The notes under the pieces are model-generated. The model was not told the origin of the DNA and did not search any database. It was given only the letters and a program-made list of their open reading frames with translations. Positions 4,619-42,342 of a DNA stretch of 51,895 bases are shown piece by piece. The stretch spans positions 1-51,895 of the forward strand of contig JBCCEW010000014.1 of NCBI GenBank assembly GCA_039030075.1, read 5' to 3'. Origin of the DNA: Myxococcota bacterium. GTDB lineage: Bacteria > Myxococcota_A > UBA9160 > SMWR01. The translations under genes were made by a program, and so were the position numbers. How positions within the stretch are numbered: the first letter of the stretch is position 1; every line of letters begins with the position of its first letter.

Positions 4619-4623
4619 TCCCG

Positions 4624-4629
4624 ATCTTA
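4624..4629 (-). promoter_or_regulatory. -10 box for a leaderless ankyrin mRNA
   Basis: TAAGAT on the minus strand ends five bases before the ATG at 4618. No purine-rich ribosome site fits between. Spacing matches other TANNNT-N5-7-start cases in this window. Confidence 0.5.
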
Positions 4630-4754
4630 TGCCCACTTCGCCTCCGAAGACCAGCCGAGGGCACCCGCGAGCAAGGCGGAGCGCCCCGAGCGAAGCGGAG
4701 CGCCGGCACTCGAGCCGACGCTCCGCAGACGCTCTGACGGAAGCGTTGCCTCGA

Positions 4755-6068
4755 CTATTCGCCGAGGATGGCGTCGTTGATCAACGGCGCCACGATCTGC
4801 ATGCCCGGGTCTTCGTTGTTGTAGTTGTTCTGGGGCTCGACCCACCGGATCACGGACCCGTTGTCCACCCAGGCGTCGAAGAACTTGTCGAAGCCGTACT
4901 GGGCGACGCCGCCCGGGCACTTCCAGCTCTGGCTCCAGGGCCACTGCCAGAACTCCCACCACTTCTTCTTGCGAATCGTCGGGCACGAGTGGCTCCCGAT
5001 GAACGTGATGATCGACGAGCAGTGGCTGTCGTTGATCGGCCGGTGCCACGGGATGTGGTAGCTGAAGTTCGGGTGATCGTTCATCTCGTCGATCAGGTTG
5101 TCCTGGTCTTCGCGCCACTTCGCCAGGATGGTCGCCTGGGTCTGGTTCGGGAAGAACCGCTCGTAGGAGAACCGCGAGAAGTTGAAGTCACTCGAGTAGC
5201 CCGTGTAGGCGAGCTGATCGTTCGGGAACTCGATGGCCACCATGTCCGTCGCGCTGCCGAAATCGTTCGTGTCGAAAGTCGCCGGCAGCTCGGCGAACAC
5301 CGTGTCCAGGTCCCACGCCACGGCGATCGTGTCGTGGAGCTGGCGCGAGTTGAAGCTGGCGTTCGGCGCGGGGAAGAGCGGCCCCGAGTCGTTCAGCATC
5401 AGCCCCTCGCTCGGATCGAGCGTGGTCCGTGCCTCGTAGTAGGCCGCGGCCGTGGCCACGCCGCCCGCGCTGAACCCGGATACCAGCAGCTTGTCGATGT
5501 TCGGGAATACGCCAGCCAGGTGATTCACCGCCGCCCGGGTGTTGTTGAAACCGACGTGGCGGAAGGTGATCGGCGGGTTCTGCCCCGACGGATCCACGTA
5601 GGTCTGGACGTTGTTGCCCACGTGCACGTCACCCGTGCAGTACGGCATGAACACGACGTCCCATCCCTGGGTCGCGATCGGATCGATCGAGCGGAACGGC
5701 AGTCCGGGATCGGCGCCGTTCACGATCGGCGACACGAAGCGTGGCGCGAACTGGGTGATGTAGTCGTCCGGGATCCCGTTCGGGTTGGCCGCGCCCAGGA
5801 TACCCAGCTCACCGCTGCAGGACGGGTAGTCCCAGCAGGCCCCGCCGCCCTCGAAGTACAGCAGGAGGTCGTCGGAGTTCGGGTTGTCGTACACGAAGAA
5901 CTTGTACTGCGAGCCGTCACTGCAGAACGTTCCCGGCAACTCGACCCGCTGCCACGGATAGTCGTTGCCGCCATTGACGACGTCCTCGATTCCGATGCCC
6001 TGAGCGGCACCGCCCAGGCACAACAGCCACGCCGTCAAAACGATCGATCGGAAACCGATGCTTCGCAT
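4755..6068 (-). CDS. secreted pectinacetylesterase/Notum-family hydrolase
   Basis: The 437-aa protein has a signal peptide (about residues 1-24, ending GGAAQG). It carries the three blocks of the pectinacetylesterase family: an oxyanion motif FEGGGACWD, then PYCTGDVHVGN, then the nucleophile motif SGFSAGGVAT. The expected Asp and His follow (NDSG, and NDSHCSS near residue 350). Family members remove acetyl or acyl esters from polysaccharides or lipidated proteins; the natural substrate here cannot be told. The start at 6068 is set by a strong GGAGGGGGAGAGC directly upstream; an in-frame start at 6182 would lack both signal peptide and ribosome site. Paired Cys residues suggest disulfides outside the cytoplasm. 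Confidence 0.82.
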   Translation of the reverse strand: MRSIGFRSIVLTAWLLCLGGAAQGIGIEDVVNGGNDYPWQRVELPGTFCSDGSQYKFFVYDNPNSDDLLLYFEGGGACWDYPSCSGELGILGAANPNGIPDDYITQFAPRFVSPIVNGADPGLPFRSIDPIATQGWDVVFMPYCTGDVHVGNNVQTYVDPSGQNPPITFRHVGFNNTRAAVNHLAGVFPNIDKLLVSGFSAGGVATAAAYYEARTTLDPSEGLMLNDSGPLFPAPNASFNSRQLHDTIAVAWDLDTVFAELPATFDTNDFGSATDMVAIEFPNDQLAYTGYSSDFNFSRFSYERFFPNQTQATILAKWREDQDNLIDEMNDHPNFSYHIPWHRPINDSHCSSIITFIGSHSCPTIRKKKWWEFWQWPWSQSWKCPGGVAQYGFDKFFDAWVDNGSVIRWVEPQNNYNNEDPGMQIVAPLINDAILGE

Positions 6069-37042: not shown

Positions 37043-37342
37043 ATGAAGCCCGAGCACAAGCGCAGCGCCTCGAACCGGCTCAAGACCGTGCAGGGCCACG
37101 TCGCGGCCGTGCTCCAGATGGTCGAGGAAGAGCGCTACTGCCCCGAGATCATGAAGCAGGTCTCGGCGCTGCAGGGGTCCCTCGAGCGCCTGAACCGCGT
37201 GCTGCTCCAGAACCATCTGGAGACCTGCGTTCCCCGAGCGATCGCCGAGAAGCGCGGCGAACAGATCGTCGCCGAGCTCCTGGAGACGCTCCGGTACACC
37301 GCTGCGGTGACCGGCCCCGCCCCCGGATCCTCTGACGCATGA
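37043..37342 (+). CDS. csoR: copper-sensing repressor, CsoR family
   Basis: The 99-aa all-helical protein has the DUF156 fold and the Cu(I) ligands Cys33, His58 and Cys62, with the spacing C-x24-H-x3-C of mycobacterial CsoR (Cys36, His61, Cys65). FrmR and RcnR differ at these sites. Without copper it should sit on the palindrome at 36970-36988 and repress csoR-copA; Cu(I) releases it. GGAGG lies five bases before the ATG. Its stop overlaps the copA start by 4 nt (ATGA), so sensor and pump are made together. Confidence 0.93.
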   Translation: MKPEHKRSASNRLKTVQGHVAAVLQMVEEERYCPEIMKQVSALQGSLERLNRVLLQNHLETCVPRAIAEKRGEQIVAELLETLRYTAAVTGPAPGSSDA

Positions 37343-39507
37343 CCGCCCTCGCCGCCGAGCGCTACCGCGTCGAGGGGATGCGCTGCGCCGGCTGTGCGTC
37401 CCGCATCGAGGGGCTGCTGCGTGCCGTCCCCGGTGTCGACGCCGCCGAGGTGAGCTTCGCGGCCGGCTCCGCCCGCGTCGCCGGAGAGGCCGCGGACGAG
37501 GCGTTGGCCGCGGCGCTCGAGGACGCGGGCTACGCCCTGCACCCGGCGGACACGGCGCACCCCACCGACCTGCGAGCCGAAGCCGCGCGCGAAGGGCGAC
37601 GCGCCGCGTGGTCGGCAGCGCTCACGCTCCCGCTCTTCGCGCTCGCGATGGCGGCTCCCGACACCCCGGCCAATCGCGCCGCCCAGCTGGCACTCGCGCT
37701 GCCCGTCGTCTTCGGCTGTGGCGCGGTGTTTCACCGCGGGGCCTGGCGGCGCGCCCGACACGCCACCGCCGACATGGACACGCTGATCTCTCTCGGGACC
37801 CTCGCAGCACTGCTCGCGTCGGCCCTCGCCTGGCAACGCGGCGCACCGCTCTTCTTCGAAACCGCCGCCATGATCGTGACCTTCGTCTGCTTCGGGCGCT
37901 GGCTGGAATTGCGTGCCCGGGCTCGCGCCTCGGATGCGGTGAGCGGCCTCGCGGCGCTCCTCCCCGACCGTGCGCGGGTCTGGCGCGATGGAGACGAAGT
38001 CGAGGTGGCGCTCGACGCTCTCCGCGTGGGCGACGTGCTGGTGCTCCGACCGGGCGACCGGGTTCCGGCCGACGCCTGCGTCCTCGAGGGTCGGGGCAGC
38101 TTCGACGAGAGTCAGTTCACGGGCGAGGCAATCCCCGTCACCCGCGACGAAGGCGACCCACTGCGCGCGGGCACGCGCAACGCGGATGGGTTCCTGCGCG
38201 CCCGGTTGGAGTCGCTGGGCGAAGACACCCGGCTCGCGGCGGTCGCAAGGCTCGTCGAGGACACCCAAGCCAGCCGCGCACCGATCCAAGCCTGGGTGGA
38301 CCGGGTCGCCGCGATCTTCGTCCCGGGCGTACTCGCCGTCGCGGCGCTCACCTTCGCGGTCTGGGCGTGGCTCGGCGCGGAAGGTGCGGCTTTGTGGGGG
38401 CCCGCCATCGCGGTGCTGGTCGTCGCGTGCCCGTGCGCCTTGGGTCTCGCCACACCGACGGCGATCGCTGCAGGCAGTGGACGCGGCGCCGAGCTGGGCG
38501 TGCTGTTCCGAACGGCCGACGCCTTCGAGCGAGCCGGGCAGATCGACGCGATCGCCTTCGACAAGACCGGCACGCTCACCGAGGGTCGGCCCGAACTCCT
38601 CGGCATCTTCGGAACGCCGAAACCCGACGTACTCCTCGGCCAGGCCGCCGCCGTCGAAACCGGAAGCGAGCATCCATTGGGGCGCGCCCTCGTATCCGCC
38701 GCGCACGACCGCGGCCTCGCGCTCCCGACCGCGCGAAACTTCGAAGCGCGCGTCGGCGACGGTGCCGAGGCCGAGGTCGAGGACCGATCCATCCGCGTCG
38801 GGAGCCTCAGCTGGCTGGCCGCGAGCGGCGCTTCCCCGAACGCGGAGCAACAGGCCGCCGTAGACGCCGCGGATGCGGATGGCGACACCTGCATCGGTGT
38901 CGCCATCGACGGAGTGCTGGCCGGCGTGTTCGTGCTCCAGGACCCGTTGCGGTCTGGCGTTCGCGAGACGTTGGCGCGCCTGCGCGACGCGGGACACGCA
39001 CTGGCGCTCTGGTCGGGCGATCGGGAGGCGCCGGTGCGTCGGGTGGCCGACGCGCTCGGAATCACTCGGATCGGCTGGCGATTGTCCCCAGACGACAAGG
39101 CGGAGGACGTCGCGCGCTGGCAGGCGGAAGGCCGTCGCGTCGCCTTCGTGGGAGATGGCATCAACGATGCCGCCGCCCTCGCACGCGCCGACCTCGGTCT
39201 GGCGATCGGTACCGGTACCGATCTCGCCCGCGACAGCGGCGATGCGGTGCTCGTCTCGGGGGACCCGAGCCGGGTGGCCGTCACCTTGGAGCTGGCAGCT
39301 CGCACCCGACGGACGATTCGCCAGAATCTCGTCTGGGCCTTCGGCTACAACCTCGCCGCGCTTCCGATCGCGGCAGCCGGTGGCTTGTCGCCGATGTTGG
39401 CCGCTGCCGCGATGGCGGCGTCGAGTGTCTGCGTCGTCAGCAACAGTCTGCGCCTGCGGCGCACCCGACTCGCCGGCGCGCTCCCGCTGGAATCAGTCGC
39501 CCGCTAG
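37339..39507 (+). CDS. copA: copper-exporting P1B-type ATPase
   Basis: The 722-aa pump exports Cu(I) across the inner membrane. It has one N-terminal HMA domain (GMRCAGC, Cys16 and Cys19), the transmembrane CPC at 364-366, the phosphorylated Asp408 in DKTGTLT, the SEHPLG motif and the GDGINDAA hinge. YNLAALP and MAASSVCVVSNSLRL near the C-terminus match the other two Cu(I)-site signatures, so it belongs to the P1B-1 class. Control is by CsoR upstream. The stop shares its CTAG with the convergent nrsF stop. Confidence 0.96.
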   Translation: MTALAAERYRVEGMRCAGCASRIEGLLRAVPGVDAAEVSFAAGSARVAGEAADEALAAALEDAGYALHPADTAHPTDLRAEAAREGRRAAWSAALTLPLFALAMAAPDTPANRAAQLALALPVVFGCGAVFHRGAWRRARHATADMDTLISLGTLAALLASALAWQRGAPLFFETAAMIVTFVCFGRWLELRARARASDAVSGLAALLPDRARVWRDGDEVEVALDALRVGDVLVLRPGDRVPADACVLEGRGSFDESQFTGEAIPVTRDEGDPLRAGTRNADGFLRARLESLGEDTRLAAVARLVEDTQASRAPIQAWVDRVAAIFVPGVLAVAALTFAVWAWLGAEGAALWGPAIAVLVVACPCALGLATPTAIAAGSGRGAELGVLFRTADAFERAGQIDAIAFDKTGTLTEGRPELLGIFGTPKPDVLLGQAAAVETGSEHPLGRALVSAAHDRGLALPTARNFEARVGDGAEAEVEDRSIRVGSLSWLAASGASPNAEQQAAVDAADADGDTCIGVAIDGVLAGVFVLQDPLRSGVRETLARLRDAGHALALWSGDREAPVRRVADALGITRIGWRLSPDDKAEDVARWQAEGRRVAFVGDGINDAAALARADLGLAIGTGTDLARDSGDAVLVSGDPSRVAVTLELAARTRRTIRQNLVWAFGYNLAALPIAAAGGLSPMLAAAAMAASSVCVVSNSLRLRRTRLAGALPLESVAR

Positions 39508-40145
39508 GCGCTGCGCTGACGCAGCCAGAGCGCTGCGGGCGCCGCCAACAACAACGCGGCGAGCAAGGGGCCCGCCGAGTGGGCCGCGAACAGGTGGAGC
39601 CCCTCCGCCCACGGGCACATGGCCAGGGCCGCGAGAGCACCGAGGCCCAGAGCCGCCGAGACGCCCAGCCAGCTCGAGAGGCCCAGATTCGGAGCGAAGC
39701 CGCGGGCCAGGAAGCCGAGCAGAACGCCAACCGGCAGGAGCGACAGCAGCACGGAACGCGCGAGACAGGCCCCGTCCGTCGCGGCCGACAGATGACGCGG
39801 GTGTCCCCAACCCACTGACGCCCCGATGCCGAGGGCGATCAGTGAGCCAAGCAAACACACGGCGGTCCCGAAGCGCGCCAGGCGCTCGCGCCCGGGAACC
39901 GCGCTCGCGAGCCCGAGCAAACCACCGATCCCGACGGCACCCAGGGCCACGAAGATCCCGCCGTAGGAGGGCATCTCCCACGCGTGATGACTCGGCCAGG
40001 CCGTCCCGCCTAGCCACATCGAGCCCACGATCCCGAGGGCCCACAACCCGAGCGCCGCGGCCCAGAGGGCGCGCAAGCGCGGCAGCAGCTTCACCGGCTC
40101 GAGGTCGCGCGCGAGATCGCGTACCAGCTGTTCGTTCGACTTCAC
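39504..40145 (-). CDS. nrsF: NrsF-type (DUF1109) membrane anti-sigma factor
   Basis: The 213-aa inner-membrane protein has six hydrophobic segments and the NrsF start: MKSNEQLVRDLARDLEPVK with a charged cytoplasmic N-terminus. In Caulobacter and Bradyrhizobium-type systems NrsF/OsrA holds a SigF-like ECF sigma factor until metal or oxidant stress is sensed through periplasmic Cys residues; here CLLGS, DGACLARS and AMCPWAEGLHLF supply candidates. It begins at GTG (40145) overlapping the sigma stop by 4 nt, so both are translated together. Confidence 0.85.
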   Translation of the reverse strand: MKSNEQLVRDLARDLEPVKLLPRLRALWAAALGLWALGIVGSMWLGGTAWPSHHAWEMPSYGGIFVALGAVGIGGLLGLASAVPGRERLARFGTAVCLLGSLIALGIGASVGWGHPRHLSAATDGACLARSVLLSLLPVGVLLGFLARGFAPNLGLSSWLGVSAALGLGALAALAMCPWAEGLHLFAAHSAGPLLAALLLAAPAALWLRQRSA

Positions 40146-40702
40146 GACTCGCCCTCGAGCCAGACCCGCAGCGCGCGGTACCCACGATGGGCGCGCACCT
40201 TCAGCGCAGATTGGGAGATGCCGACTCTCTGCGCGGCCTCAGCGACGGAGAGCCCCTGGACGTGCAGTAGCTCGACCGCCTGACGCTGGCCGGGCGCGAG
40301 CGACGCAAGCGCCCCCGACAGCTCGGGAGACAGATCGTCTTCGAAGAACGCGCGCTCCGGCGGTGCCGCCGGCTCGGCCACCCCGTCCTCCTCGAGGGAG
40401 GACTCGTGTCGCGAGCGCCGACCGCGGGCCCGCGAGGCGTCGATGATGGCGTTGCGCGCGATCGCGTGCAGCCAGGGGCCGAATGGCCGGTCGGAGTGGT
40501 AGGTGTGGCGGGCGCGGTGGACAGAGAACAGCACGTTCTGCACAACATCCTCGAGGGCGTCTCGGTCGGCGACGCGACGTCCGACGAACCCCCGCAAGTG
40601 GGCCAGTAATTCGGCGAGGAGCTTCTCGTAGCTCGCGGCATCCCCGCCCTGGGCAGCCGTCATCCAGACCCGCCAGCGCTTCTCCCGCGCCTCGAAATCC
40701 AC
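40142..40702 (-). CDS. ECF RNA polymerase sigma factor (SigF/EcfF-like)
   Basis: The 186-aa protein has sigma region 2 (YEKLLAELLAHLRGFVGRRV, then DALEDVVQNVLFSVHRAR and PFGPWLHAIARNAIID) and region 4 (LAPGQRQAVELLHVQGLSVA, then AQRVGISQSALKVRAHRGYR). Pairing with NrsF places it in the SigF-like ECF group. The GTG start at 40702 has GGGGAG 11-16 nt upstream. A matching promoter (GTAACC-N16-CGTA) sits directly upstream, so it should activate its own operon. The promoter is duplicated in mirror image, firing toward a structured gene-less region. Confidence 0.93.
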   Translation of the reverse strand: MDFEAREKRWRVWMTAAQGGDAASYEKLLAELLAHLRGFVGRRVADRDALEDVVQNVLFSVHRARHTYHSDRPFGPWLHAIARNAIIDASRARGRRSRHESSLEEDGVAEPAAPPERAFFEDDLSPELSGALASLAPGQRQAVELLHVQGLSVAEAAQRVGISQSALKVRAHRGYRALRVWLEGES

Positions 40703-40720
40703 GCTCGCCCGTTCTCCCCT

Positions 40721-40746
40721 TACGTTGCGGCGAGGAACCCGGTTAC
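40721..40746 (-). promoter_or_regulatory. ECF-type promoter for the sigma-nrsF operon
   Basis: Minus strand: GTAACC (40746-40741), exactly 16 bp, CGTA (40724-40721). This fits the GTAACC-N16-CGWA form known for SigF/NrsF-controlled genes. Transcription should begin near 40714, leaving a short leader with GGGGAG. Confidence 0.7.
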
Positions 40747-40750
40747 CCGT

Positions 40751-40776
40751 GTAACCGCGCTCCGGGCGCCAGCGTA
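40751..40776 (+). promoter_or_regulatory. mirror-image ECF-type promoter firing rightward
   Basis: Plus strand: GTAACC (40751-40756), exactly 16 bp, CGTA (40773-40776). Together with the leftward promoter it makes the palindrome GGTTACCCGTGTAACC (40741-40756), with both -35 boxes back to back around 40748.5. It has no protein gene ahead of it. Confidence 0.65.
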
Positions 40777-40782
40777 CAACAC

Positions 40783-40990
40783 CACAGCCTCGGGAATTCC
40801 CTTGGCATCAAGCGTTGGATTCTGGAGCCACCGGTGCGATTCGCACGGGGTGCCGATACGAGGGCATCGACACCCGACCCGGACGCGGCCTGCGGCGCGA
40901 GTTCTCCCCTGCGACGCGGAATGCGGGCGGGTGTGCGACTCACGGGGCCCGGGTGGGCCCCACGCCGGTGGCTCCAGTTCTATCGCGCCC
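40783..40990 (+). ncRNA. candidate sigma-controlled structured small RNA
   Basis: The rightward promoter leads into about 200 bases without a credible gene. A perfect 13-bp helix closes the region: CTGGAGCCACCGG (40822-40834) with CCGGTGGCTCCAG (40965-40977). Inside are GTGCG-ATT-CGCAC (40834-40846), a 10-bp stem with one mismatch (40848-40857 with 40866-40875), and GGGGCCC-GGGT-GGGCCCC (40944-40961). The first inner hairpin shares one base with the closing helix. TTCTAT follows the closing helix. The ends are guesses. It could also be a double-ended terminator or a short mobile repeat; transcription is not shown. The downstream rdgB lies on the other strand, ending at 41000. Confidence 0.45.
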
Positions 40991-40999
40991 AGCCGGGGC

Positions 41000-41620
41000 C
41001 TAGCGCCCGAGCACGGCCCGTTCGATCGCGGGCTGGAGTGCGAGAAAGGCGCGACCCCGGTGGGAGATCGCGTTCTTGGCGGCCGCCGGGAGTTCGGCCA
41101 TGACCTTCCCCTGCTCGGTCGAGAAGAAGACCGGGTCGTAGCCGAAGCCACCGTGGCCCTGGGGCTTCTCGAGGATCGTTCCGGGACACTCGCCCCAGGC
41201 GGTCTCGACCACGCCGTCGGGAGTCGCCAACGCTGCAACGCACACGAAGCGGGCCTCGCGCGCGGCGCCCTCGGCGTCTCCGAGTTCGGCGAGCAGATAC
41301 GCGACCCGGCCAGCGTCATCGAGCCCGGCGCCGCCGTAGCGCGCCGAGAAAGGCCCCGGACCGCCGTCGAGGCCGGTGACTTCCAACCCGGAGTCGTCCG
41401 CCACGGCGGGCCGCCCCGCATCGCGGGCGACCGCCTTTGCCTTGGCGATCGCATTGGCCTCGTACTCGTCCCCTTCTTCTGGCAGGAGCACGTCGGGAAA
41501 CGCCTCGAGGGAGCGGAGCGATACCGGAAGGCTGCCGAGAATGGCGCGGATCTCGATGAGCTTCCCCGCGTTGCCGGTGGCGACGACGACCTCCGGATAG
41601 CGCCCGCCGGCCTCGCTCAC
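41000..41620 (-). CDS. rdgB: non-canonical purine NTP pyrophosphatase (dITP/XTP)
   Basis: The 206-aa HAM1-family protein cleans deaminated nucleotides (dITP, XTP) from the pool in the cytoplasm. Motifs: [14 protein letters not shown] at the N-terminus, [22 protein letters not shown] split over two blocks, and [10 protein letters not shown] with late SHRGRA. GTG at 41620 overlaps the rph stop by 4 nt (GTGA), the common rph-rdgB pair. Its stop is at 41000, facing the structured region driven by the ECF promoter, so an extended small RNA would be antisense to it. Confidence 0.95.
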
Positions 41621-42342
41621 CGCTTGGCTCCGGCGACGGCCTCGGCTTGCAACTGGCCGAGGGCCCGGGTGCCGTCGAGAGCGAGCTTCGTCAGTCCCGC
41701 GAGCTCGTCGGGCGAGAACGTCCCATCCTCACCCGTCCCCTGCACTTCGACGAACTGCCCCGCGCCGGTGGCCACCACGTTCATGTCGACGGCCGCCCGC
41801 GAGTCTTCGACGTAGGGAAGATCCAGCAGGAGCTCGCCACCGAGGATCCCGACCGACACGGCCGCGACGGAATCGCGCACCGGATTGCGCTCGAGTTCAC
41901 CGCGTGCGACCAGGCGCTCAGCGGCGATCGACAGCGCCACCGACGCGCCCGTGATCGAAGCGCAACGCGTACCGCCGTCCGCCTGCAGGACGTCGCAGTC
42001 GATCCAGAGGGTGCGCTCGCCCAGGGCTTCGAAGTCGAGAACGGCGCGCAGGCTGCGGCCGATCAGCCGTTGGATCTCCTGGGTGCGACCCGACTGCTTC
42101 CCTCGCGCCGCTTCGCGAGAGCCACGCGTGTCGGTCGAGCCCGGGAGCATCGAGTACTCGGCGGTACACCAACCGCGTCCCCGTCCTTGGAGGAAACGCG
42201 GCACGCCGTCCTCCTCGCAGACGGTGCAGAGCACCCAGGTTCGCCCCACCTGGCACAGCACCGACGCGAGGGGCTGCTCCGTGTAGTCCACTTCGAAGCG
42301 CACCGGACGCATCTCGTCCGGGCGACGACCGTCGCTCCTCAC
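41617..42342 (-). CDS. rph: ribonuclease PH
   Basis: RNase PH trims tRNA 3' ends by phosphorolysis. The 241-aa protein shows the family start ([20 protein letters not shown]), [17 protein letters not shown], the Arg-rich [16 protein letters not shown] and the phosphate-site [19 protein letters not shown] in parts. The GTG at 42342 has GGAGAGGAG upstream. A 12-bp palindrome ATCCCTAGGGAT overlaps the end of the upstream amidase gene at 42376-42387. Only tRNA-Leu of the four tRNAs here lacks an encoded CCA, so 3' processing by this enzyme is relevant for it. Confidence 0.96.

Follow-up and report, generated by a model that had tools for sequence, protein, structure and literature searches.

The closest described relatives of the locus analysed here are regulatory systems built around extracytoplasmic function (ECF) sigma factors of class ECF16. 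In Caulobacter crescentus, the gene for sigma-F is followed by that for NrsF, a six-helix anti-sigma protein with two conserved cysteines, and GTAACC-N16 promoters, in the prototype form GTAACC-N16-CGAA, precede targets that include DUF2282/MNIO (bufferin-type) genes (PMC3511200). In Brucella melitensis, two ECF16 promoters facing away from each other lie between the sigma gene of the BcrS/AbcS system and the neighbouring bcrXQP operon; the motif was published as (T/C)GTAAC-N17-CGAA, and the bcrS and bcrX start sites were both mapped by 5′ RACE (PMC8315932). In Sinorhizobium meliloti, GTAAC...CGAA promoters serve the operon of RpoE7/EcfR7 and an adjoining DUF692/DUF2063 operon, and rpoE7/SMb20530 is likely a further divergent ECF16 promoter pair between a sigma gene and its target (PMC6180224). 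A survey of bufferin gene clusters also links sigma and NrsF genes to bufferin biosynthesis (PMC12452194).

The present locus shares the promoter motif with these systems, the sigma-then-anti-sigma order and probably the cysteine pair with Caulobacter, and the divergent arrangement with Brucella. It looks like an ECF16 system and, judged from its sequence, should work like one. The -10 box is CGTA here, whereas it is CGAA in Caulobacter, and in the order to which this bacterium belongs the divergent target is often a second ECF sigma gene, a type of target found neither for Caulobacter sigma-F nor for S. meliloti RpoE7. In Brucella the divergent operon is present and 38 bp separate the two sites; here only 4 bp lie between them, and there is no divergent gene.

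The sigma operon and its divergent promoter pair

The window, by which we mean the whole 51,895-nucleotide stretch analysed, contains the following features around the promoter pair.

39504..40145, minus strand: putative NrsF-like anti-sigma membrane protein gene (NrsF PF06532, E 0.085, full length)
40142..40702, minus strand: ECF16 (SigF)-like sigma gene with a GTG start (Pfam Sigma70_r2 4.6e-13, Sigma70_r4_2 3.7e-12)
40721..40746, minus strand: predicted promoter of the sigma-NrsF operon (-35 GTAACC 40746-40741, N16, -10 CGTA 40724-40721; start predicted near 40714)
40741..40756: palindrome GGTTAC-CCGT-GTAACC made by the pair of -35 boxes
40751..40776, plus strand: predicted divergent promoter, probably an orphaned ECF2 promoter (-35 GTAACC 40751-40756, N16, -10 CGTA 40773-40776; start predicted near 40783)

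Matches of the sigma protein to NCBIfam sigma models all fall below the model cut-offs. The NrsF-like gene overlaps the sigma stop codon and encodes 213 residues; taken alone, its product matches PF06532 over the full length at a value weaker than the cut-off. When it is considered together with nine counterparts from relatives and paralogues, all ten proteins match this family at E values up to 1 (best 9e-17), and C127, C177 and two histidines are invariant in their alignment. The invariant cysteine pair agrees with C131 and C181 of Caulobacter NrsF, the residues that signal there (PMC3511200). A copper-type P-type ATPase gene (37339-39507, plus strand) is convergent with the NrsF-like gene; several relatives carry a phosphoglycerate-mutase-like gene at that position.

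An earlier, sequence-only reading had described two perfectly symmetric, exact motifs of SigF/NrsF type. Inspection of the window confirms this geometry: GTAACC-N16-CGTA occurs without mismatch on both strands, as GTAACCGGGTTCCTCGCCGCAACGTA on the minus strand and GTAACCGCGCTCCGGGCGCCAGCGTA on the plus strand, with a 16-nt spacer each, a common centre at 40748.5 and only CCGT (4 bp) between the two -35 boxes. The assignment to the ECF16 type is supported by the homologues, by conservation of the motif and by the published Caulobacter and Brucella promoters (PMC3511200, PMC8315932). The leftward copy is kept upstream of orthologues and paralogues of the sigma gene, with CGTA in place of CGAA as its last box, and it stands before the sigma gene with at most one mismatch in most of the 30 related loci described below, which supports the proposal that the leftward site serves the sigma gene.

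That the exact spacing on both sides is unlikely to arise by chance is borne out by shuffling and by the 4-bp placement of the sites. GTAACC-N15-17-CGWA is expected 0.09 times per shuffled window, and none of 100 shuffles held two or more matches. A search of the 5.76-Mb genome, of the kind that the sequence-only reading had proposed as a way to see the regulon, found GTAACC-N16-CGTA five times, compared with four occurrences of a reversed-pattern control (about 0.7 per Mb). The counts alone show no enrichment, and it is the placement of the copies that is telling. Two are the window pair; of the remaining three, two stand upstream of sigma paralogues and one upstream of a bufferin gene:

C12:96563: motif copy before a sigma paralogue (C12:95971-96474)
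C26:26884: motif copy before a sigma paralogue (C26:27011-27523)
C5:137867: motif copy before a BufA2-type bufferin gene (BufA2 by NCBIfam model)

From the genome counts we estimate a probability of the order of 1e-4 or less that chance would place a second site, on the opposite strand, no more than 100 bp away from any one site. A motif no commoner than its reversed control would suit the idea that the rightward copy is fortuitous, but this copy lies 4 bp from the leftward one and in the slot of a promoter conserved in relatives, and we regard a chance match as very improbable.

Gene order to the right of the pair in related loci

To the right of the promoter pair, the window contains a short gap followed by two genes on the opposite strand.

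40777..40999: gap of 223 bp beyond the rightward promoter; relatives carry ECF2 and/or a protein of about 100 residues here
41000..41620, minus strand: rdgB (Ham1-like NTP pyrophosphatase, Pfam Ham1p_like), convergent with the rightward promoter; a syntenic anchor and a neighbour in relatives
41617..42342, minus strand: rph (ribonuclease PH, TIGR01966), a syntenic anchor

We compared 30 loci with related sigma genes, the window counted as one; these loci are related to one another and not independent. A separate contig scan for related loci yielded distant ones only, mostly alphaproteobacterial, which were left out of the comparison. The amidase-rph-rdgB flank is shared by the window and several relatives. 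In nine of the 30 loci, a second ECF sigma gene (ECF2; Pfam Sigma70_r2 and r4_2) is transcribed divergently from the first. All nine carry a motif facing ECF2, with at most one mismatch and a spacing of 16, compared with none of the six loci in which the protein of about 100 residues is the next divergent gene (Fisher test about 2e-4, relatedness of the loci ignored). The sequence-only reading had taken the rightward site as the mark of an unrecognised regulon member; in relatives the site precedes ECF2, a gene that this genome appears to have lost, and an orphaned promoter of a known kind is the better reading.

The spacing of the -35 boxes varies widely among these pairs. The 4-bp distance recurs in a single same-family relative (L015/G003), whose order is rph-rdgB-[ECF2]-sigma-NrsF and whose motif pair comprises the only exact motifs in that genome. 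In the other pairs at ECF2 loci the distances are 11, 12, 12, 52, 59 and 79 bp, and in the pair of G013, the genome with the closest sigma relative (67% identity), it is -5 bp. With a range of -5 to 79 bp, symmetry as a functional feature is not supported; the comparison shows that it is not required, although the family may have inherited it from its ancestor. The palindrome GGTTAC-N4-GTAACC does look like a single 16-bp operator, to which a dimeric regulator could bind, and might be that in place of two promoters. Against this, both CGTA boxes lie at exact spacing, and in relatives the half sites are 11-79 bp apart, each with its own -10 box, so that a single operator appears highly improbable. 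The same arrangement supports the view that both sites act as separate promoters in relatives.

Loss of the rightward copy with retention of the leftward one in close relatives had been named beforehand as evidence against a paired function. Exactly this pattern is seen in five same-family loci (L010-L014), but there the target gene is absent too. The sigma gene is missing from the one genome of the same genus.

The protein of about 100 residues, with the motif RRxFDHLxxELS, is conserved; many relatives encode it in the interval from rdgB to the sigma locus (for example L074:6134-6457(-), L079:4707-5069(-), L082:5004-5285(-) and L142:5975-6262(+)), and downstream of ECF2 where both exist. It has no match in Pfam, NCBIfam or PADLOC.

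An empty slot with a folded element

The absence of a protein gene to the right of the pair, as claimed earlier, was upheld: 40777-40999 contains no credible open reading frame, and beyond it comes rdgB, which is read on the opposite strand and has its stop at 41000. We found no trace of ECF2 or of the protein of about 100 residues in the 223-bp gap. A pseudogene of either was considered and rejected, as the search returned just short, composition-level matches, the top one on the wrong strand. The gap is also single-copy in the genome, which argues against a dispersed repeat or mobile element, and it has no significant DNA similarity to relatives. Both genes are absent from the assembly, which is 95% complete and includes the position they would occupy, with no gene in it. 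For ECF2, the best matches reach at most 37% by BLAST and 41% in the genome search, compared with 48-55% among orthologues. A relocated copy within the assembly was rejected, since only more distant ECF paralogues turned up, and one on the DNA missing from it seems improbable.

The gap does contain one conspicuous structure.

40822..40977, minus strand: lineage-specific element with a strong fold, its ends paired by a perfect inverted repeat of 13 bp; folds better as the leftward strand

Relative to shuffled sequences, the element folds with a z of -7.2 on the minus and -5.5 on the plus strand. Other 165-nt windows have a mean z of -0.26 and a lowest value of -5.2, a comparison that flatters the element because its bounds were set by eye. 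The runner-up in the window scan is at 4621-4785 on the minus strand (z about -5.2). A 13-bp arm pair is expected 0.65 times per 52 kb and is not rare. The equivalent gap in another relative (G009, L073:2375-2425) holds a near-perfect long hairpin (GGGGGACGCT...AGCGTCCCCC) that shows no sequence relationship to the element described here.

The fate of the rightward promoter

We consider it most plausible, at a probability of about 0.62, that the two sites form a divergent ECF16-class promoter pair whose rightward member is an inherited ECF2 promoter, and that with ECF2 now gone it is most likely a relic without a dedicated product. The sigma factor would be released when stress acts on the NrsF-like protein with its cysteines; it would then transcribe its own sigma/anti-sigma operon from the leftward site and would probably also drive the distant BufA2 copper-bufferin operon on C5. 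Only about 69 bp lie between the predicted starts, which should leave no room for a polymerase at each, and the orphan promoter may therefore still compete with the live leftward one and damp autoregulation. In ancestors, the rightward site would have fired ECF2, a second sigma factor, giving a two-step cascade whose second step is lost here.

The site remains exact in this genome, though it is lost in relatives without ECF2, and this hints that it still has a function or that ECF2 disappeared very recently. That the gap keeps no trace of ECF2 is a further point against the relic reading. Retained function of any kind, whether through an RNA, antisense transcription or competition, is in our view the less likely alternative. 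Reuse of the divergent promoter after the loss of ECF2, as the source of a structured stress RNA or as a product-less competitor limiting sigma autoregulation, is doubtful. In the RNA version of this idea, stress would induce from the promoter a noncoding transcript roughly 200 nt long that starts near 40783, spans the folded element and constitutes a new regulon member. An intact site despite the loss of the ancestral gene, together with a plus-strand fold far beyond shuffles at a suitable distance from the promoter, would fit such an RNA. However, the opposite strand folds better, and once the closing helix is removed the plus strand becomes unremarkable (z -1.4) while the minus strand retains a z of -4.5. 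A terminator-like site for a rightward transcript was not found, Rfam gave no match to the element, and a covariance model, run against 80 genomes of the order, recovered no homologue besides the window copy in which covariation could show. Because the fold is better on the strand opposite to that read from the rightward promoter, the element, if it is an RNA, is more likely part of a leftward transcript running past the end of rdgB. We therefore judge a rightward noncoding RNA unlikely.

Alternatively, the rightward site could be kept because it acts without a dedicated product, either through the competition just described, which would limit autoregulation, or by giving an antisense RNA to rdgB-rph; rdgB is convergent with the rightward promoter. 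Relatives lacking ECF2 nevertheless manage without the rightward site, and a role of this kind seems to us quite unlikely.

If the rightward site is indeed an orphaned ECF2 promoter, the window offers a natural case of a promoter that outlived its target gene, making decay and new use of orphan promoters directly testable. Across relatives, an ECF16-type promoter before a second ECF sigma gene predicts a sigma cascade.

Bufferin genes behind the same motif

With this locus, ECF16-type autoregulation and the control of bufferin genes would reach into an order that has received little study. In the window's own genome, an MNIO (DUF692)-like frame follows the BufA2 gene behind the exact GTAACC-N16-CGTA motif (L086 near 4868-5300; C5:137867 onward), and this operon is a probable target of the window sigma factor or of a paralogue. 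In the bufferin survey, sigma and NrsF genes are reported in Buf1, not Buf2, clusters (PMC12452194), whereas the precursors here match an NCBIfam model named BufA2 under a separate naming scheme. YceI was not found as a bufferin neighbour in the text of that survey. In G013 (L072:1337-3975), the sigma-NrsF operon is divergent from a YceI-BufA2-MNIO operon, which has its own exact motif before YceI.
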